DNA from: Methylopila sp. Yamaguchi
GTDB taxonomy: Bacteria > Pseudomonadota > Alphaproteobacteria > Rhizobiales > Methylopilaceae
Assembly: GCF_002897035.1 (NCBI RefSeq)
Contig: NZ_BAUX01000007.1
Coordinates: 62,001-126,000 of the forward strand
Length of the DNA: 64,000 nt
Reading direction: 5' to 3'
The notes below the pieces were generated by a model. It had not been told where the DNA came from. It made no database searches and was given only the letters and a program-made list of their open reading frames with translations. The position numbers were made by a program, and so were the translations under genes. Within the stretch, counting starts at the first letter, position 1. Every line of letters begins with the position of its first letter. Below are positions 9,333-19,953 of this stretch, piece after piece.

Positions 9333-10034
9333 GCGCAGCGTCTCCTCAGGTTCGGGATCACGCTTACGCCTCCCCGCCCGCGGCCGCCACTGCACGCGAA
9401 GCGGGTCTCCCTCCACAGGCGCGCGCGGCGCGGGATTGTGCAGTTGCCCAATTCGTGTTCAAGTCGATGCGCGACTGTGCGCCATCCGCCGCGCCGTTTC
9501 CGAATCGCCGCACGCCAAGCGCGTCAGCGATCAGCGGCTTCAGCGGAAAAAGGCCGGGCCCATAGCGACTTGCGGCGCGCTCCGCTCCGCGCGTCCGCCC
9601 GAAATACGCGGCCTTCGGGCCGCACGCTTCGTCGTGCGCGAAGACATCTACGGTCCACTCTTAAGATCTGCGACAACACATTGGGCGCGTCGAGCCGGCT
9701 CCGGCGGCGGTCGAATGAGCGGAGTGCGATGCAATCGGCTCAGATCTGCGGCGTACACAAACTATTGAACGCCGCCCAATCACGGCTGCGACTTTCGTCA
9801 CAGGCTCGACAACTTCCGTCAGACGCAGCCTTCGACCCGAGGCGGCAAAGAACAACTCAGATTATCCTCGCCATCCGCAAGGATGAGGCGTCCGGTCGCA
9901 CTGTGTTCCGAATGTCTCATATCGATGACGATCGTCGTTCGCGAGAACTATCCCCCCTCGCGCCCGGCAGAATTCCGCGGATACTGCGATTGCGAATGGC
10001 AGTTCTGTCGAAAACAGTTTCGGGGATTAAGCAA
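9333..10034. other. 702-base intergenic region between the monooxygenase and the porin gene
   Basis: No ORF here has convincing protein-like composition. Two small signals are visible: a GCGGCC-TTCG-GGCCGC stem-loop at 9608-9623 and a perfect GACGATCGTC palindrome at 9927-9936. The last 300 bases are clearly richer in A and T than the flanks and should contain the promoters for the two divergent genes. A long leader or small RNA is possible but not demonstrable. Confidence 0.4.
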
Positions 10035-10847
10035 ATGATTAAGAACGCGGGGATCGCGCTTGCTCTGGGCGCGTCGTTCGCCCTCGCGGGGGCTGGGCAG
10101 GCTTCGGCCGCCGACCTCTCGGCGCCGGAGACCCTTGTCACCGAAGTGACGCCGGTGTGGGACGTCGCTTTCGGCGTCGCCTTCATGAACGACTACCGCA
10201 CGCGCGGCATCAGCAACTCCGCCAAGGATCCGGCGATCCAGGGCTACGCCGAGCTGCAGGCCTTCGACTGGCTCTACGCGGGCATCTGGGCGTCGAACGT
10301 CAACGGCTTCTCGACCGATCCCTCGGCCGAAATCGACCTCTACGGCGGCGTGCGCCACACCTTCGGCGCCCTCACCCTGGACGGCGGCGCGCTGTTCTAC
10401 TGGTACCCGGGCGAGACCGGCGGCGAGACCAACTACTGGGAGCTGTCGTTCAAGCCGAGCTACGCGATCAGCGACGACCTCGTGATCAGCGGCACGCTGC
10501 TGTACGGCTGGGACATCGGCAACGCTGGCGGCGACGGCCTCTACCTGGTGGGCGGCGCCAAGTACACCCTGCCCTTCCAGACCATTCCCGACGTCGCCTT
10601 CTACGTCTCGGGCGAGTTCGGCAAGCAGTGGCTCGGCAAGACCGACTCCGGCTTCAACCCGAAGAACTATCTGACCTGGAACGCCGGCGTCGGCGCCACC
10701 TACAAGGCGGCGACCCTCGACGTGCGCTACATCGACACCGACCTCAGCAAGAACGAGTGCGCCTTCAACACCGGCGCGCGCGGCTGGTGCGGCTCGACGG
10801 CCCTCGTGAAGCTGTCGTTCGACACCGCCTTCAGCAAGCTCAAGTAA
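10035..10847 (+). CDS. TorF-family putative outer-membrane porin
   Basis: 270 residues with a clear signal peptide (Lys3, then a hydrophobic core, cleavage near QASA-AD at residue 25). The mature part is made of alternating aromatic/polar beta-strand stretches, with DYRTRGISNS near the N-terminus, which is typical of the TIGR02001 family. The last residue is Lys rather than the usual Phe/Trp of many porins. Function is unknown beyond outer-membrane location. ATG 10035 gives a proper signal peptide; in-frame ATG 9996 would add 13 residues. It is followed by a strong terminator and appears monocistronic. Confidence 0.85.
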   Translation: MIKNAGIALALGASFALAGAGQASAADLSAPETLVTEVTPVWDVAFGVAFMNDYRTRGISNSAKDPAIQGYAELQAFDWLYAGIWASNVNGFSTDPSAEIDLYGGVRHTFGALTLDGGALFYWYPGETGGETNYWELSFKPSYAISDDLVISGTLLYGWDIGNAGGDGLYLVGGAKYTLPFQTIPDVAFYVSGEFGKQWLGKTDSGFNPKNYLTWNAGVGATYKAATLDVRYIDTDLSKNECAFNTGARGWCGSTALVKLSFDTAFSKLK

Positions 10848-10910: not shown

Positions 10911-11252
10911 ATGAACGGCGTCCCCGCTTACGTCCTGCTCGCCCTCGCCATCGTCGCGGAGGTCATCGGGACCTCAGCGCTGAAGGCGTCCGACGGGCTC
11001 TCGCGCCTTGGGCCGAGCCTGGTCACTCTGCTCGGCTACGGCGTCGCGTTTTACCTCCTCTCCCACGTCCTGAAGACGATCCCCACCGGCGTCGCCTACG
11101 CGATCTGGTCCGGCGGCGGCATCGTGCTGATCGCGCTGGTCGGCGTCGTTTGGTTCCGCCAGGCTCTCGACGGGCCGGCGCTCGTCGGCGTCGGGCTGAT
11201 TCTCGCGGGGGTGATGGTGGTGACGCTGTTCTCGAAGTCCGTCGCGCACTGA
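10911..11252 (+). CDS. Small multidrug resistance (SMR) family efflux protein
   Basis: 113 residues with four membrane helices. The essential proton/substrate-binding Glu is at position 17 (IVAEVIGTSALK), matching EmrE Glu14, and the GVAYAIWSGGGIV motif in helix 3 is that of SMR pumps such as EmrE and QacE. These work as antiparallel dimers that exchange protons for cationic compounds; some relatives export betaine and choline, which is interesting because a choline locus begins 10 bases further on, convergently. That link is only positional. Confidence 0.93.
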   Translation: MNGVPAYVLLALAIVAEVIGTSALKASDGLSRLGPSLVTLLGYGVAFYLLSHVLKTIPTGVAYAIWSGGGIVLIALVGVVWFRQALDGPALVGVGLILAGVMVVTLFSKSVAH

Positions 11253-11261
11253 CGCGGAGCG

Positions 11262-13151
11262 TCAGCCTGCATCGGCGTCGCAGGCGAGCGTCCGGCGCAC
11301 CCGCCCGTAGACGCTGGCCCCCGGGTCCAGCCAGTCCTCCTCGGCCGCGGCGAAGCCGCGCCCCCAATCGTTGATCCGGCAGACCGCCGCCTCCGCGTCG
11401 CGCGCCAGCCGGCGCGCCCTGGCCACGTCCCCCACGTAGACCCCGAGCGACAACCCCGGCCCCAGCGCTCTAAGCCGCGCCGCGGCGTCGGCGTTGGTCG
11501 CCACGCCGCATGTGAGAACGATCGGCGCGAACACGGGGGCGCGCGCGATGGCCATGTCTTCATGGCCGTCGTCGAGCAGCGTCGGCTTGAGGAAGGCAGC
11601 ACGGCTCCGGGCGCCCGGATCCTCCGCGCGACCGCCGAGCTTCACCCGCGCGCCGTCGCGCCGCGCCGCTTCGATCAGCGCGAGCGCGCGCTCGAGCTGA
11701 TCGCGCGAGGCCATGGGGCCGACCTCGACCGCCGGATCCATCGGATCGCCCATCGCAAGCGCGGCCATTTCCGCGCGAAGCCGCTCGACGAGCGTTTGAC
11801 GCGCGGCCTCGGCGACGAAGACGATCGTCTCACTCAGCGCGCGCGCGCGAGCGAACCGCCGCGCGCCGCGCGCGATCTCGAAAGCCGCGCGCGCGACATC
11901 GGCGTCATCGGTCACCAGCACCGCAGATTTCCGCGGCGCGTCCGCCCAGCCCACAGAGGGGCCGCCGGCGGCCCGCGCCGCCCGGTCGGCGTCGTCGCCG
12001 CCCAGCACTTCGAACGCGCCCTCGGGCGCGCCCGCCTCGCGCGCGATCGCCGCGAGGCGGGACAGGGCTCGGGTCTTCCGCGCCGCGGAGCACGCGACCG
12101 CCGTCGCGCCTTCGGCCAGCGCCGGCCCGACGCCACGGCTCGCAAGCAGCAGCGGCGCGCTCCAATGGGCCGGGGCCAGGATGGAGGCCGGCGGGCAGCG
12201 GTCCGCCCAGCCGCTCCGGCCGCCGCCGAAATCGACGTGGTCGGCCGCCGGCGCCGCGGCTTGCTCGGCGGCGCGCTCGAAGGCGCGGATCACTCGCGGC
12301 AGGTCGTGCGCCTCGACGTCGGCCACCGGGCGACCGGTGTCGCGCGCCTCCAGCCGGGCGATCGCTTTGCGTTCGTCACGCAAGCGCAACGCCACGCGCC
12401 GCAGCACCTCGCCCCGCTCCCCGCGCGTCGCGGTCCGCCAGGCGAGGCTTCCGCCCGCGTCCGACGACCTCCACGAGCGGGCCGGCGTGGAGGGCGCCGC
12501 GGCTTGCGCGGGGACCGAGGCCGGGCTCGACGCGCCTTCCCGCGCGATCAGAAGGGTGACGAGCTCCCGCACGATCGATCGGGCCTCGGACCCATCGGAC
12601 CTGACGACTCCGGTCGAGTGCGACTGCAGCCAGAGGCCGTCGATCGTCGCGGCGATGAAGGAGACGGAGATTTCGAGCCGCGCGGGATCCACCAGGGGCC
12701 GCAGCCCGTAGCGCAGGTTCGCCCGCATGCGCTGCTGGTAGATCGACTGCACCCGGCGGTAGGGCTCGGAGTGCATGATCTGGCCCCAGAACGCCAGCCA
12801 GACGGCGCTGGTGCGCGGATCGAACTCCTCTGGCGCAAGCGCCGACTCCGGGACCGCAAGCACCCGCTCCAGCGGCGTGCGCGCCGCGCGCAGCCGCGCG
12901 GCCGTCGCCCGTGCGAGCCTCGCCGCCATGAACCGCAGCGTCGCCTCCAGCAGCCCGTCCTTGTCGCCGAAATAATGCGCGAACAGTCCTTGGCTGACGC
13001 CGGCGCGGCGCGCGATCTCGCCGAGCGACGCCGCCTTGAAGCCGACGTCGGACACGGTTTCGATCGTCGCTTCGATCAAATGCCGCCGGCGCTCCGCTTC
13101 GAAGCTGCGCATGGGCTCGGACGGCACGGCGGCGGACTGCGGTGGGGCCAT
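11262..13151 (-). CDS. betI: BetI-type TetR repressor fused to a degenerate aldehyde dehydrogenase domain
   Basis: 629 residues in one uninterrupted frame. Residues 1-205 are a BetI regulator: a TetR helix-turn-helix with SLGEIARRAGVSQGLFAHYF followed by the BetI ligand domain. After an Ala/Pro/Ser linker (206-235), residues 236-629 align with the aldehyde dehydrogenase family, most clearly ERGEVLRRVALRLRDE and EARDTGRPVADVE. The active site is gone: the Cys position is Ala438, the catalytic Asn in WNYP is Ser331, the NAD-site Lys in KPSE is lost, and about 30 residues spanning the FTGG nucleotide motif are deleted. It reads divergently from choX and close to real betB. I infer a repressor whose dead dehydrogenase half may sense betaine aldehyde or help oligomerisation. 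ATG 13151 is chosen; ATG 13112 is possible. Standard BetI is about 200 residues. Confidence 0.85.
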   Translation of the reverse strand: MAPPQSAAVPSEPMRSFEAERRRHLIEATIETVSDVGFKAASLGEIARRAGVSQGLFAHYFGDKDGLLEATLRFMAARLARATAARLRAARTPLERVLAVPESALAPEEFDPRTSAVWLAFWGQIMHSEPYRRVQSIYQQRMRANLRYGLRPLVDPARLEISVSFIAATIDGLWLQSHSTGVVRSDGSEARSIVRELVTLLIAREGASSPASVPAQAAAPSTPARSWRSSDAGGSLAWRTATRGERGEVLRRVALRLRDERKAIARLEARDTGRPVADVEAHDLPRVIRAFERAAEQAAAPAADHVDFGGGRSGWADRCPPASILAPAHWSAPLLLASRGVGPALAEGATAVACSAARKTRALSRLAAIAREAGAPEGAFEVLGGDDADRAARAAGGPSVGWADAPRKSAVLVTDDADVARAAFEIARGARRFARARALSETIVFVAEAARQTLVERLRAEMAALAMGDPMDPAVEVGPMASRDQLERALALIEAARRDGARVKLGGRAEDPGARSRAAFLKPTLLDDGHEDMAIARAPVFAPIVLTCGVATNADAAARLRALGPGLSLGVYVGDVARARRLARDAEAAVCRINDWGRGFAAAEEDWLDPGASVYGRVRRTLACDADAG

Positions 13152-13170
13152 GTCCAAAGCATACGACGCC

Positions 13171-13188
13171 GTTGAACATCTGTTCAAC
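13171..13188. promoter_or_regulatory. Candidate BetI operator 1 (betI side)
   Basis: Perfect inverted repeat GTTGAAC-ATCT-GTTCAAC, 20 bases upstream of the betI start. It has the TTGAAC/GTTCAA half-sites expected of BetI boxes, and its position suggests autoregulation. Confidence 0.7.
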
Positions 13189-13323: not shown

Positions 13324-13341
13324 ATTGAACGATCATTCAAT
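13324..13341. promoter_or_regulatory. Candidate BetI operator 2 (choX side)
   Basis: ATTGAAC-GATC-ATTCAAT has the same 7-4-7 geometry as the site at 13171 with one mismatch between arms. It lies 60 bases before choX in an AT-rich stretch likely to hold the promoter. A lone half-site TTGAAC is also present at 13255. Confidence 0.65.
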
Positions 13342-13400
13342 GCGTTCTAACGATTTAGTCACGCCAGTTGAAGCCCCGTTCACCTTGGAGGGTCTCCGTG

Positions 13401-14348
13401 ATGCGTCTCCGCATGCTTCTGTCCGCGATCTGCGCAGCCGGACTCCTCGGCGGGGCACCCGCCCTGGCGGCCGAGCCGGCCGCCTGCAAGACTGTCCGGT
13501 TCGCCGACGTCGGTTGGACCGACATCACCTCCACCACCGCCATCGCGTCACGTATTCTCGAAGGTCTCGGCTACCAGACCAAGACCCAGGTGCTGTCCGT
13601 GCCGGTGACCTACGCCTCGCTGAAGTCCAAGGACATCGACGTTTTCCTTGGCAACTGGATGCCGACGATGGAGGCAGACCGCAAACCCTACGTGGAGGCC
13701 AAGCAGATCGACGTGATTGGGCCGAACCTGACCGGCGCGAAGTACACGTTGGCGGTGCCGACCTATCTCTACGACAAGGGCCTCAAGACCTTCGCCGACA
13801 TCGAGAAGTTCAAGGACGAGCTGCACGACAAGATCTACGGCATCGAGCCGGGCAACGACGGCAACCGGCTGATCCTCGGCATGATCAAGGACGGTAAGTT
13901 CGGCCTCAAGGGCTTCGATCTGGTCGAGTCGAGCGAACAGGGCATGCTGGCGCAGGTCGACCGCGCCCAGCGGCGCAAGGAGGCGATCGTCTTCCTCGGC
14001 TGGGAGCCGCATCCCATGAACACGAAGTATTCGATCAAGTATCTCGAGGGCGGCGACGACGTGTTCGGCCCGAACCTGGGCGGCGCAGAGATCTACACCA
14101 ACCTGCGCGCGGGCTACGCCGGCGAGTGCCCCAACCTCGGGACCTTCTTCAACAAGCTGACCTTCACACTCGACACCGAGAACAAGGTCATGGGCGCGAT
14201 CCTGTTCGACGGCATGGACGGCGGCAAGGCCGCCGAGAGCTGGCTGAAGGCCGAGCCCGAGGCCTGGAAGGGATGGCTCGACGGCGTGACCACCATCGAT
14301 GGCCAGCCCGGCCTGCCGGCGGTGCGGAAGAGCCTCGGACTGAACTGA
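13401..14348 (+). CDS. choX: Choline ABC transporter, periplasmic substrate-binding protein
   Basis: 315 residues with a signal peptide ending near ALAA-EP (about residue 24). The choline cation cage of ChoX is complete: Trp39 (DVGWTD), Trp86 (LGNWMP), Tyr115 (AKYTLA) and Trp201 (LGWEPH), each exactly four residues before the counterparts in Sinorhizobium meliloti ChoX (43, 90, 119, 205). That makes choline rather than betaine the likely ligand. ATG 13401 follows GGAGGG at good spacing and gives a normal signal peptide. It is the first gene of choXWV-betB-betA, behind the candidate BetI operator. Confidence 0.95.
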   Translation: MRLRMLLSAICAAGLLGGAPALAAEPAACKTVRFADVGWTDITSTTAIASRILEGLGYQTKTQVLSVPVTYASLKSKDIDVFLGNWMPTMEADRKPYVEAKQIDVIGPNLTGAKYTLAVPTYLYDKGLKTFADIEKFKDELHDKIYGIEPGNDGNRLILGMIKDGKFGLKGFDLVESSEQGMLAQVDRAQRRKEAIVFLGWEPHPMNTKYSIKYLEGGDDVFGPNLGGAEIYTNLRAGYAGECPNLGTFFNKLTFTLDTENKVMGAILFDGMDGGKAAESWLKAEPEAWKGWLDGVTTIDGQPGLPAVRKSLGLN

Positions 14349-14457: not shown

Positions 14458-15315
14458 ATGACCGACTGGCTGACCACGCACAAGATCCCGCTTGGACCTG
14501 TGCTCGCGACGGCGATCGAATGGCTGACCGACCACGGCCAGGCGTTTTTCGACTTCATCGCGATCGCGCTCTCGGCGCTCGTCGACGGCCTCACCGACCT
14601 CCTGCTGTGGATTCCCGCGCTGATCCTTGTCGCGGCTTTCGCGATAGGGGCCTATGCGCTTCACCGTTCGATCGGCCTCGTCGTCTTCATCGTCCTGTCG
14701 CTGCTGCTGGTGATCAACCTCGGCTACTGGGAGGCGACGATGCAGACGCTCTCCCTGGTGATCTGGGCGACGGCGACCTGCATCGTGATCGGCGTCCCCG
14801 TCGGCATCGCCGCCGCGCATCGGCCTTGGCTCTACCAGGCGATCCGGCCCGTGCTCGACCTGATGCAGACGATCCCGACCTTCGTGTACCTGATCCCGAC
14901 CCTCGTGCTGTTCGGCCTCGGCACGGTGCCGGGCGTGATCTCGACGGTGATCTTCGCGCTGCCCGCGCCGATCCGCCTGACGCAGCTCGGCGTCTCGACC
15001 GTGCCGGAGGCGCTGCGGGAGGCGGCGCTCGCCTATGGCGCGACCAAGCGGCAGCTGCTGTTCAAGGTGGAGTTGCCGCACGCCATGCCGACGATCCTCG
15101 CCGGCGTCACCCAGTGCATCATGCTCAGCCTGTCGATGGTGGTGATCGCCGCCCTCGTCGGCGCGGACGGCCTCGGCAAACCGGTCGTTCGGGCGCTGAA
15201 CTCCGTCAACATCTCCATGGGCTTCGAGGCCGGCATCGCCATCGTCATCCTCGCGATCATCCTCGACCGCGTGTGCAAGCGGCCCGAGCGCCGCGCCAAG
15301 AGGAGGTCGGCATGA
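14458..15315 (+). CDS. choW: Choline ABC transporter permease
   Basis: 285-residue inner-membrane permease of the ProW/OpuAB class with about six helices and the EAA loop that contacts the ATPase (VPEALREAALAYGATKRQLLFKVELPHA region, about residues 183-209). TIPTFVYLIPTLVLFG in the fourth helix is typical of choline/betaine systems. It sits 109 bases after choX and overlaps choV by four bases (ATGA). Confidence 0.93.
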   Translation: MTDWLTTHKIPLGPVLATAIEWLTDHGQAFFDFIAIALSALVDGLTDLLLWIPALILVAAFAIGAYALHRSIGLVVFIVLSLLLVINLGYWEATMQTLSLVIWATATCIVIGVPVGIAAAHRPWLYQAIRPVLDLMQTIPTFVYLIPTLVLFGLGTVPGVISTVIFALPAPIRLTQLGVSTVPEALREAALAYGATKRQLLFKVELPHAMPTILAGVTQCIMLSLSMVVIAALVGADGLGKPVVRALNSVNISMGFEAGIAIVILAIILDRVCKRPERRAKRRSA

Positions 15316-16541
15316 CCATCCCCGCCGAACCGGGCGTCGCCGCCGCCGCTCCCGCGGCGACGCCGAGCCGCGCCGACAACGCCGTCGAACTGCGCGACCT
15401 CGCGATCATTTTCGGCCGGACGAAGGAGGCGCTCGCCCTCGCCGACGAGGGCGCGAACCGCGACGAGATCCGCGACAAGACCGGCGCGATCCTCGGCGCC
15501 TACGGGGTCAACCTCGACATCCGCAAGGGCGAGATTTGCGTGCTGATGGGCCTCTCCGGCTCTGGCAAGTCGACCGTGCTGCGCGCCGTGAACGGGCTTA
15601 ACAAGACCGCGCGCGGTGAGGTGATGGTGCGCCACGAGGGCGCGCTGGTGGACGTCGCGACCTGTGGGCCCAAGACCCTGCGCGACATCCGCCTCAAGAC
15701 CGTCTCCATGGTGTTCCAGCAGTTCGGCCTCCTGCCCTGGCGCAGCGTGCGCGACAACGTCGGCTTCGGCCTCGAGATCCGCGGCATGGGCGCGGCGGAG
15801 CGGCGCGCCATCGTCGACGAGAAGCTCGAGATGGTCGGCCTCTCGAACTGGGCCGACAAGCAGGTGCAGGAGCTCTCCGGCGGCATGCAGCAGCGCGTGG
15901 GCCTCGCCCGCGCTTTCGCCACCGACGCCGACATCCTGCTGATGGACGAGCCGTTCTCTGCGCTCGACCCGCTGATCCGCGACAAGCTGCAGGACGACCT
16001 GCTCGCGCTGCAGGAGAAGCTGCACAAGACCATCATTTTCGTGAGCCACGACCTGTCCGAGGCGCTGAAGATCGGCAACCGCATCGCCATCATGGAGGGC
16101 GGCCGCGTCGTGCAGTTCGGCGCGCCGGCCGACATCATGCTGCGCCCCGCGGACGCCTACGTCGCCGAGTTCGTGAAGCGCATGAACCCGCTGGAGGTGC
16201 TGTCCGTCGACGCCGTGATGAGGCCGACCGCCGACCTCACCCGCGCCGCCGGCGCCGTGCTGTTGGACGGCGACGGCGGAGCGGTCGCGCTGACGCTCTG
16301 CAGCGAGGGCAAGCCGCTGACGCTGATGATCAATGGCCAGGTCCGGACGATCGGAGCGGTCGACGTCTCGGGCGCCGTCACCCGGCAGGGCGACATCGTC
16401 GTGGCGCCCGCCGAGCTGCCGCTCAAGGCCGCGATCGACGTGCGCCGACAGTCGAACTACCCGATCGCGCTCGTCGACCAGCTCGGCCGCCTCGCCGGGC
16501 TCTGCGATCACGAGGACATCTACAAGGGCCTGCTGCGATGA
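15312..16541 (+). CDS. choV: Choline ABC transporter ATP-binding protein
   Basis: 409 residues. Walker [10 protein letters not shown], signature LSGGM, Walker B ILLMDEP and the H-loop VSHD are all intact. A C-terminal extension after residue 290 is CBS-like, as in ProV/OpuAA, where it senses ionic strength. The start is fixed by the ATGA overlap with choW and by GGAGG at 15302-15306. It powers choline import into the cytoplasm for oxidation by BetA and BetB; its stop overlaps the betB start. Confidence 0.94.
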
Positions 16542-18046
16542 CCGCCGCCGCGCGCATTCCGTCTCCCGCCGCCGCCTCTCCGCGTTTCGGCCTTCAACGG
16601 CCGCACATCGGCGGTGCCTACGTGGACGCCGTCGGCGGCGAGTCCTTCGAGACGGTGAACCCCGCGACGGGCGAGGTGCTGGCGCAGGTGCAGCAGGCCT
16701 CCGCCGCGGACGTCGACCGCACCGTGAACGCGGCGGCCGCCGGCCAGAAGGTCTGGGCCGCGATGACCGCGATGGAGCGCTCGCGCGTGCTGCGCCGCGC
16801 CGTGGCGCTGCTCCGGGATCGCAACGACGAGCTGGCCGAGATCGAGACGCTCGACACCGGCAAGCCGCTGGCGGAGACGCTCGCCGTCGACGTGGTCACC
16901 GGCGCGGACGTGCTCGAGTACTACGCCGGCCTCGCGCCGGCGCTCGAAGGCCGGCAGATCCCCCTGCGCGAGACCTCCTTCGTCTACACGCGCCGGGAGC
17001 CGCTCGGCGTCGTCGCCGGCATCGGGGCGTGGAACTACCCGATCCAGATCGCGCTCTGGAAATCGGCGCCGGCGCTCGCCGCCGGAAACGCCATGATCTT
17101 CAAGCCAAGCGAGGTGACGCCTCTCACCGCGCTGAAGCTGGCCGAGATCTACGCGGAGGCGGGGCTTCCCGCAGGCTGCTTCAACGTGCTGAACGGCGCG
17201 GGCGCCGGCGTCGGCGCGGCGCTCACGGAGCATCCGGGGATCGCCAAGGTGTCGTTCACCGGCGGCACGGCCACAGGCAAGAAGGTGATGGCCTCGGCCT
17301 CCGCCTCGACGCTCAAGGACGTCACCATGGAGCTCGGCGGCAAGTCGCCGCTCATCGTGCTCGACGACGCCGACCTCGACCGCGCCGCCGACATCGCGAC
17401 GGCCGCGAACTTCTTCTCCACCGGCCAGGTCTGCACCAACGGCACCCGCGTCTTCGTGGCGAGGCCGCTCATGGCGGCGTTCGAGGCGAAGGTGGTCGAA
17501 CGGGCGAAGCGCATCCGCCTGGGCGACCCGCTCGACCGCGCCACCAACTTCGGGCCGCTCGTCAGCTTCGCGCATCGCGACAAGGTTCTGGGCTACATCG
17601 CGCGCGGCAAGGCCGCCGGCGCGCGGCTGCTGACCGGCGGCGGGACGCCCGGCGGCGCGCTCGCGCGCGGCGCCTATGTGGAGCCCACGATCTTCGCCGA
17701 CTGCACGGATGAGATGGACATCGTGCGCGACGAGATCTTCGGGCCGGTGATGAGCCTGCTCGCCTACGACGCCGAGGACGAGGCCGTCGCCCGCGCCAAC
17801 GCCACAGCCTACGGCCTCGCGGCCGGCGTCGTCACCCGCGACCTCGCGCGCGCGCACCGCGTCATCCACCGGCTCGAGGCCGGCATCTGCTGGATCAACA
17901 CCTGGGGCGAGTCGCCGGCCGAGATGCCCGTCGGCGGCTACAAGCAATCCGGCGTCGGGCGCGAGAACGGCGTCGAGACGCTGGAGCGCTACACGCAGTG
18001 CAAGTCGGTCCAGGTCGAGCTCGGAGACTTCGCCGCGGTGTTTTGA
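16538..18046 (+). CDS. betB: Betaine aldehyde dehydrogenase
   Basis: 502-residue NAD(P)-dependent enzyme converting betaine aldehyde to glycine betaine. Catalytic residues are all present: Asn166 (AWNYP), Lys189 (FKPSE), Glu265 (ELGGKSP) and Cys299 (GQVCTNG); the Rossmann segment FTGGTATGK is intact. These are exactly the positions lost in the ALDH half of the neighbouring BetI fusion. It starts at the ATGA overlap with choV. Confidence 0.95.
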
Positions 18047-18246: not shown

Positions 18247-19953
18247 ATGATCATGGCCCAAGGCAAGGCCCAGGAATTCGACTACATCGTCATCGGCGCC
18301 GGCTCCGCAGGCAACGTGCTGGCGACGCGCCTGACCGAGGACCCGGACGTCACCGTGCTGCTGCTCGAGGCCGGCGGGCCGGACTACCGGCTCGACTTCC
18401 GCACCCAGATGCCGGCGGCGCTCGCCTTCCCGCTGCAGGGCCGGCGCTACAACTGGGCCTACCTGACCGATCCCGAGCCGCACATGAACGGCCGGCGCAT
18501 GGAGTGCGGCCGCGGCAAAGGGCTGGGCGGATCCTCGCTGATCAACGGCATGTGCTACATCCGCGGCAACGCCATGGACTTCGACGGCTGGGCGCAGGCG
18601 CCGGGTCTGGGCGATTGGACCTACGCCGACTGCCTGCCCTATTTCCGCAAGTCCGAGACCCGCGACGTCGGGCCGAACGCCTATCATGGCGGCGACGGCC
18701 CGGTGTCGGTGACGACCTCGAAGCCGGGGGTCAACCCACTGTTCGAGGCGATGGTCGCGGCCGGCGTGCAGGCGGGCTATCCCCGCACCGACGACCTCAA
18801 CGGCTACCAGCAGGAGGGCTTCGGCCCGATGGATCGGACGGTGACCCCGAGAGGCCGTCGCTCCTCCACCGCGCGCGGCTATCTCGACCAGGCCAAGGGC
18901 CGGCCGAACCTCACGATCGTCACCCACGCCACCACCGACCGGATCCTGTTTTCGGGCCGCCGCGCCGTCGGCGTGTCCTATCTCATCGGCGCGAGCGACG
19001 AGGCGACCGTCGCCCACGCCCGGCGCGAAGTGCTGCTCTCGGCGGGCGCGATCGCCTCGCCCCAGATCCTCCAGCGCTCCGGCGTCGGCCCCGCCGCCCT
19101 GCTGCGCGAGGTCGGCGCGCCCCTCGTGCAGGACCTGCCGGGCGTCGGCCGCAACCTGCAGGACCACCTCGAGATGTACCTGCAGTACGAGTGCTTGAAG
19201 CCGGTGTCGCTGGCGCCGGCGCTGAAGTGGTGGAACCAGCCGAAGATCGGCGCCGAGTGGCTTTTCGCCGGCAAAGGACTTGGCGCCTCCAACCAGTTCG
19301 AGGCCGGCGGCTTCATCCGCTCCAGCTCGGAGTTCGCCTGGCCGAACATCCAGTTCCACTTCCTGCCGGTCGCGATCTCGTACAACGGCACCAACGCCTT
19401 CGAGGGCCACGGCTTCCAGGCTCATGTGGGCTCCATGCGCTCGCCCAGCCGCGGCCGGATCGCGCTGACCTCCATGGACCCGCGCGCGCACCCGTCGATC
19501 CTGTTCAACTACATGAGCCACGACCAGGACTGGCGCGAGTTCCGCGACGGCATCCGCCTGACGCGCGAGATCATGCGCCAGCCGGCGCTCGACCCTTACC
19601 GCGGCCGCGAGATCAGCCCGGGCGAGGCGCGCCAGACCGACGCCGACCTTGACGCCTTCATCCGGCAGCACGCGGAGACCGCCTACCACCCCTCGTGCTC
19701 CTGCAAGATGGGCGAGGACGAGACGGCGGTGGTGGACGGCCAGGGCCGCGTGCACGGGTTCGAGGGCCTGCGCGTGGTCGACGCCTCGATCATGCCGCTG
19801 ATCATCACCGGCAATCTCAACGCCACCACGATCATGATGGCGGAGAAGATCGCCGACCGGATTCGCGGCCGGGCGCCGCTCGCCCGTAGCGACGCGCCCT
19901 ACTTCGTCGCCGGCGACGCGCCGGTGAAGCGCCCGGCGCAGCGGGCCGCCTGA
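18247..19953 (+). CDS. betA: Choline dehydrogenase
   Basis: 568-residue GMC flavoenzyme oxidising choline to betaine aldehyde at the membrane. It shows the N-terminal FAD dinucleotide motif [16 protein letters not shown] signature [15 protein letters not shown], second signature [16 protein letters not shown], and the C-terminal [11 protein letters not shown] and [12 protein letters not shown] with the active-site His/Asn. ATG 18247 and ATG 18253 are both possible starts; upstream in-frame TTG 18211 lies in the repeat and is not favoured. Its 3' end overlaps the convergent HxlR gene by 55 bases. Confidence 0.94.

Follow-up and report, generated by a model that had tools for sequence, protein, structure and literature searches.

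We analysed a 64-kb stretch of the Methylopila sp. Yamaguchi genome (the window), in which a betI fusion gene lies divergent from genes for choline transport and oxidation. The following features were identified at the locus.

11262..13151, minus strand: betI-pseudo-betB fusion ORF, 629 aa, stop codon included in the coordinates
12942..13079, minus strand: TetR_N DNA-binding domain, residues 25-70 (Pfam PF00440, 2.3e-13 for the whole protein)
12546..12875, minus strand: TetR_C_6, the BetI-type ligand/dimer domain, residues 93-202 (Pfam PF13977, 1.4e-20)
12477..12536, minus strand: variable linker, residues 206-225 (low pLDDT)
11280..12476, minus strand: catalytically dead aldehyde dehydrogenase (ALDH) domain, residues ~226-624 (Pfam PF00171, active-site comparison, AF2)
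11937..11963, minus strand: region lacking the FTGG-to-ELGG segment of BetB, residues 397-405 (alignment, low pLDDT)
11838..11840, minus strand: Ala438, replacing the catalytic Cys (alignment with BetB)
13172..13187: BetI-box-like palindrome TTGAACATCTGTTCAA, adjoining the fusion start (motif scan)
13325..13340: BetI-box-like palindrome TTGAACGATCATTCAA, on the choX side (motif scan)
13401..14348, plus strand: choX, choline ABC substrate-binding protein, the divergent neighbour (the M. nodulans homologue is so annotated)
14458..15315, plus strand: choW, choline ABC permease (M. nodulans annotation)
15312..16541, plus strand: choV, choline ABC ATPase (M. nodulans annotation)
16538..18046, plus strand: betB, catalytically intact betaine aldehyde dehydrogenase (PRK13252, 855 bits vs. 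a cut-off of 593)
18247..19953, plus strand: betA, choline dehydrogenase (M. nodulans annotation)

The fusion ORF starts with an ATG at 13151, stops at 11262-11264 and runs through both halves in a single frame, with no stop codon or frameshift between them. TetR_N, TetR_C_6 and Aldedh are its only Pfam domains, the last matching in two stretches (whole-protein E = 7e-58) because of an internal deletion. The NCBIfam BetI profiles place it above the cut-off of PRK00767 (155.8 vs. 118) and below that of TIGR03384 (170 vs. 201.3). The best ALDH-subfamily profile is PRK13252 (BetB), and the cut-offs of both BetB profiles are missed (PRK13252, 171.6 vs. 593; TIGR01804, 147.4 vs. 668.6). The linker differs in length and sequence between homologues. 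Antisense to the fusion is a 537-codon open frame (window 11562-13175, plus strand), which we judge to be a by-product of the high GC content because the constraint fits the minus-strand frame.

Active-site residues were read off an alignment of the fusion with the window's own BetB, whose active site is intact. Besides the replacement of the catalytic Cys by Ala438, the Asn of WNYP is Ser331 (Trp330 is retained), the Lys and Glu of KPSE are Cys and Ala, and the Glu of (E/D)EIFGP is Pro. The general-base Glu (ELGG) is absent, gone with the deleted segment. The first ~45 residues of ALDH and the GGYKQSG part are also missing, and the nucleotide-site motifs (KPSE, FTGG and the EIFGP Glu) have all been lost. 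It is near certain that the ALDH half is catalytically dead, and equally so that the dead, conserved fusion itself is real. The initial annotation had described a BetI running in one uninterrupted frame into an ALDH fold with an altered active site, near a real BetB. This description, which named no strand, holds in each part: the 629-aa ORF, on the minus strand, includes an ALDH body of ~400 residues, the alignment confirms Ala438, Ser331, the lost KPSE Lys and the FTGG deletion, and betB starts at 16538, 3.39 kb away.

The order choX-choW-choV-betB-betA matches the annotated order in M. nodulans. The palindromes at 13172 and 13325 are of the type TTGAAYNNNNRTTCAA, and a third, weaker site lies at 13368; no other motif match in the 64 kb of the window scores 10/12 or better, and all three fall in the fusion-choX region. 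Two such boxes recur in similar places in most of the homologous divergent regions, including those with a tail-less BetI, and the motif scan found none at two orphan loci, Hyphomicrobium facile (L041) and genome G012. BetI proteins bind palindromic betI boxes and respond to choline (PMC12442346). Judged by its domains and position, the fusion is the BetI of this locus, and two putative BetI boxes separate it from the divergent choXWV-betB-betA genes. An argument from DNA looping was dropped: the boxes are spaced 140-187 bp apart with no common helical phase by eye, and the locus of the tail-less Hansschlegelia BetI has the same kind of spacing. In Hansschlegelia plantiphila (L048 10341-13384), a second pair of betA-like and betB-like genes (34-38% identity) lies near the bet locus.

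Tail-to-tail with the window's fusion are genes for a TorF-like putative porin (9990-10847) and a small multidrug-resistance-type protein (10911-11252). The porin also neighbours the fusion in Methylobacterium, in M. nodulans and in G012, where it adjoins the dead fusion (L125 9282-11162) as it does in the window. Since it recurs in this position, the porin may belong to the fusion's regulon.

A search for the same architecture across genomes, which the initial annotation had suggested, revealed 15 colinear homologues with an uninterrupted frame that are equally dead, in Methylopila, Hyphomicrobium and Methylobacterium/Methylorubrum genomes. The catalytic Cys, general base, KPSE and EIFGP Glu are missing from all 16 dead fusions. 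Full-length colinear fusions share 89% (Methylopila capsulata) and 87% (G007) identity with the window's, 59-87% in other genomes of its genus, 51% in Hyphomicrobium facile and about 42-44% in Methylobacterium/Methylorubrum; a Rhizobiales MAG also carries one, as does the M. nodulans plasmid pMNOD01, where the annotation names BetI alone. At most of the dead-fusion loci, a live BetB is present in the divergent operon. The fusion is the best BetI-domain match, by about 35-44 bits, in three Methylobacterium/Methylorubrum genomes, and is therefore probably their working BetI. In Hyphomicrobium facile, the fusion (L041) is located apart from the cho/bet genes. G012 keeps its dead fusion although no choX, betA or BetB orthologue was found in that genome.

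We then asked how the dead half evolves. In close pairs its dN/dS is 0.25-0.56, compared with 0.15-0.28 for the separate BetB, by a simple count-based estimate in GC-rich DNA, and its rate of change is roughly three- to sixfold that of BetB. Observed pN/pS was 0.29-0.65 and lay below neutral in all eight pairs; when the same sequences were evolved neutrally at matched synonymous divergence, mean pN/pS was 1.13-1.39 and the lowest single run gave 0.87. The ALDH half is thus selected as a protein, less strictly than BetB, under purifying selection that is relaxed but clear. The same simulation expects just 0.7-5 stops per copy in this GC-rich DNA, so the open frame alone is weak evidence. The dead ALDH retains 30 of 145 columns that are invariant in live enzymes, chiefly Gly, Pro, Ala, Trp and Arg positions that do not belong to the catalytic set. 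Sixteen columns have become fixed, across two deep clades, for states other than those of live ALDH. The initial annotation had raised the possibility of a lone decayed pseudogene with no conservation; the build is instead conserved and under selection.

Structure prediction, also proposed there, suggests that the dead half keeps the ALDH fold. The AF2 model of this half reached a pTM of 0.85, from a 51-row alignment that held live homologues and is thereby biased toward the ALDH fold. The model matches the BADH structures 6wsa, 2xdr and 8uzk (Z ~30, rmsd ~3 Å over ~370 residues), with a Foldseek TM of about 0.74. It supersedes a first AF2 model from 15 sequences, in which the ALDH subdomains were badly placed (Foldseek TM 0.28, rmsd 18 Å).

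Among 397 genomes of the order, a profile search recovered 13 single-ORF BetI-BetB fusions with an intact active site, all of which keep WNYP, KPAE, the TG motif, ELGGKS, G(E/Q)(V/I)CSN and EEIFGP. A further intact fusion occurs in genus g80 (G781) and two more elsewhere in the class (G748, G749). In all, intact single-chain fusions were found in at least 16 other Alphaproteobacterial genomes (loci L066-L075, L078-L080, L128, L129 and L159). Where longer flanks were available, betA comes after the fusion and choX is divergent. In other families betI and betB are separate, often touching, in the same place, and this betI-betB-betA arrangement divergent from choXWV is, from gene order, the plain layout. 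In the phylum sample outside Alphaproteobacteria, every match spanning both halves had a stop between them. A plasmid of Komagataeibacter saccharivorans encodes BetI plus BetB with an intact active site in one ORF (L109 6022-8052), annotated as betB alone; it is distant from the other fusions in the BetI tree and probably represents an independent fusion. The two annotated fusion examples are thus named by one half only, 'betI' or 'betB'. A check for internal starts revealed Met/GTG codons with weak ribosome-site matches in some live-fusion linkers, inconsistently. The intact fusions are candidate self-regulating, PutA-like repressor-enzymes of choline oxidation. We found no report of them in a literature search of open-licence papers. 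Within genus g80, the ALDH half is part-decayed in three genomes (L076, L077 and L081) that have intact relatives in the same genus. The depth of decay differs among the g80 fusions, and no BetB orthologue was found in the genomes with decayed ones (G325, G393 and G371).

Phylogenetic analyses of the BetI half placed the dead fusions, the BetI-only Hansschlegelia proteins and that of a Roseiarcus MAG in one clade (support 100/100), and grouped the decayed g80 fusions with the intact g80 fusions (97/93). Holding the dead and decayed fusions together, as a single loss of catalysis would demand, was rejected (p-AU 0.0006); catalysis has therefore been lost at least twice among BetI-BetB fusions. 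Keeping the BetI-only forms out of the dead clade was also rejected (p-AU 0.0008), so Hansschlegelia and the Roseiarcus MAG probably lost the whole ALDH tail secondarily. A single fusion origin for all, with the distant Komagataeibacter fusion left out, was not rejected (p-AU 0.305). In the ALDH tree, the window's live BetB groups weakly with BetB of families f40/f44 and not with live-fusion ALDH, a hint that the BetB of the operon took the place of the fused copy. The branch leading to the dead ALDH is too long to be placed there, nor was the dead clade positioned with ALDH-only trees, which are prone to long-branch attraction. The case for descent from a live fusion is therefore built on domain order, synteny and the BetI tree. 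On these grounds, the most likely ancestor of the window's fusion is a single-chain BetI-BetB acting as both repressor and enzyme. Among living relatives, a series runs from unfused betI and betB through live, decaying and conserved dead fusions to BetI alone.

The reading that we favour, at roughly even chances, is that the BetI half binds DNA and senses an effector, and that the ALDH body has been kept as a pseudoenzyme whose role is structural or in oligomerisation. We infer the descent from a live fusion, the DNA binding, the effector and the structural role. The ancestor would have been a single-chain BetI-BetB combining repressor and enzyme. A second BetB, in the choXWV-betB-betA operon, would have taken over catalysis, after which the fused active site was lost; in the other decayed group, this loss would have followed the disappearance of betA and betB. 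The ALDH half would have been kept despite losing its active site. The BetI half would occupy both BetI boxes in the fusion-choX intergenic region until released by a choline-type effector bound in the ligand pocket of its own TetR fold. The ALDH body, non-catalytic and independent of NAD, would determine how the repressor oligomerises, how stable it is or how far it reaches. Against a structural role, the ALDH half changes several times faster than BetB and has lost its N-terminal part, a Rossmann segment and the GGYKQSG part. The tail is entirely gone in Hansschlegelia and the Roseiarcus MAG, and is therefore dispensable there.

The main rival lies close to this structural reading and is a serious, if less probable, possibility: the ALDH body may be a useless, passive relic under folding constraint only, kept open and foldable since a defective tail, misfolded or cut short, would be harmful to BetI or to the cell, slowly eroding and now and then lost. 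Its faster change than BetB, its internal and terminal deletions, its complete absence from Hansschlegelia and Roseiarcus, the varying depth of decay in g80 and the few stops expected under neutrality all agree with such erosion. The pN/pS values well under neutral in every pair and the new columns fixed across two deep clades argue against it, as does the fact that most lineages keep the tail although its removal is evidently tolerated.

We regard as doubtful a third scenario in which the live fusions are autogenous repressor-enzymes whose ALDH occupancy alters operator binding, and the ALDH half in the window's clade became a pseudoenzyme receptor that kept signalling a choline-pathway ligand or partner to the repressor, such a conversion having occurred at least twice. 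Still less probable is the proposal of the initial annotation that the pseudo-BetB module acts as a sensor, by binding betaine aldehyde or by pairing with BetB, and so informs the repressor of the state of the pathway. The predicted ALDH fold with its retained WNYP Trp, the live BetB in the divergent operon at most dead-fusion loci and the response of known BetI proteins to choline (PMC12442346) are compatible with it. However, NAD-dependent reporting is unlikely given the loss of KPSE, the EIFGP Glu and the FTGG/Rossmann segment. Partnership with BetB cannot be general, since the dead fusion of G012 (also without choX and betA) and the decayed fusions of G325, G393 and G371 persist in genomes where no BetB orthologue was found, and Hansschlegelia has BetB and no tail; the Hyphomicrobium facile fusion, apart from its cho/bet genes, also speaks against a pathway reporter. 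Of that earlier interpretation, the conserved, selected dead fusion stands, and an NAD-type reading and obligatory pairing with BetB or reporting of pathway state are not supported; it had also overlooked the relatives with the same fusion and an intact active site, the likely origin. A sequencing or assembly error joining betI to a pseudogene is excluded for practical purposes, because the same single frame and architecture recur in M. capsulata, G007 and more distant genomes, in many independent and some near-complete assemblies, and we found no point in its favour.

Compared with known systems, the fusion resembles the BetI of bet operons in its TetR_N and TetR_C_6 domains, its choXWV/betB/betA neighbours and the BetI-box-like palindromes in the divergent promoter region, but a dead ALDH lengthens it by about 420 residues and it falls below one BetI cut-off (TIGR03384) although above the other (PRK00767). 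Its ALDH half is nearest to the BetB subfamily by profile, with a predicted fold near BADH structures, but unlike BetB it has no catalytic Cys, general base, nucleotide motif, N-terminal part or GGYKQSG part. MocR/GabR regulators are a GntR helix-turn-helix fused to an aminotransferase-like domain, and MocR binds PLP. They likewise use an enzyme-fold domain, fused to a DNA-binding domain, for regulation, but the folds are different (Pfam detects neither a GntR helix-turn-helix nor an aminotransferase domain in the window's fusion), and the fusion has no remaining cofactor site comparable to that for PLP in MocR. PutA, the trifunctional proline utilisation flavoenzyme, unites an autogenous repressor and the pathway dehydrogenase in one chain (PMC5293562). 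This one-chain principle fits the live BetI-BetB relatives; the window's fusion differs in having TetR/BetI in place of the ribbon-helix-helix and proline dehydrogenase domains (absent by Pfam) and in its dead enzyme half. By sequence, the fusion is a BetI with an extra domain; through its inferred live ancestors it is PutA-like, yet not a PutA. Our search of open-licence literature turned up no description of a BetI-ALDH fusion.

It thus seems that a self-regulating enzyme became a repressor that carries an inactive enzyme body. The series in living relatives makes it testable whether a dead enzyme domain on a regulator has a regulatory use or is an eroding relic, and dead and live fusions together provide a natural experiment on the conversion of an enzyme into a regulatory component. 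The live BetI-BetB proteins, if they are autogenous repressor-enzymes, would be a TetR-based counterpart of PutA for choline oxidation.
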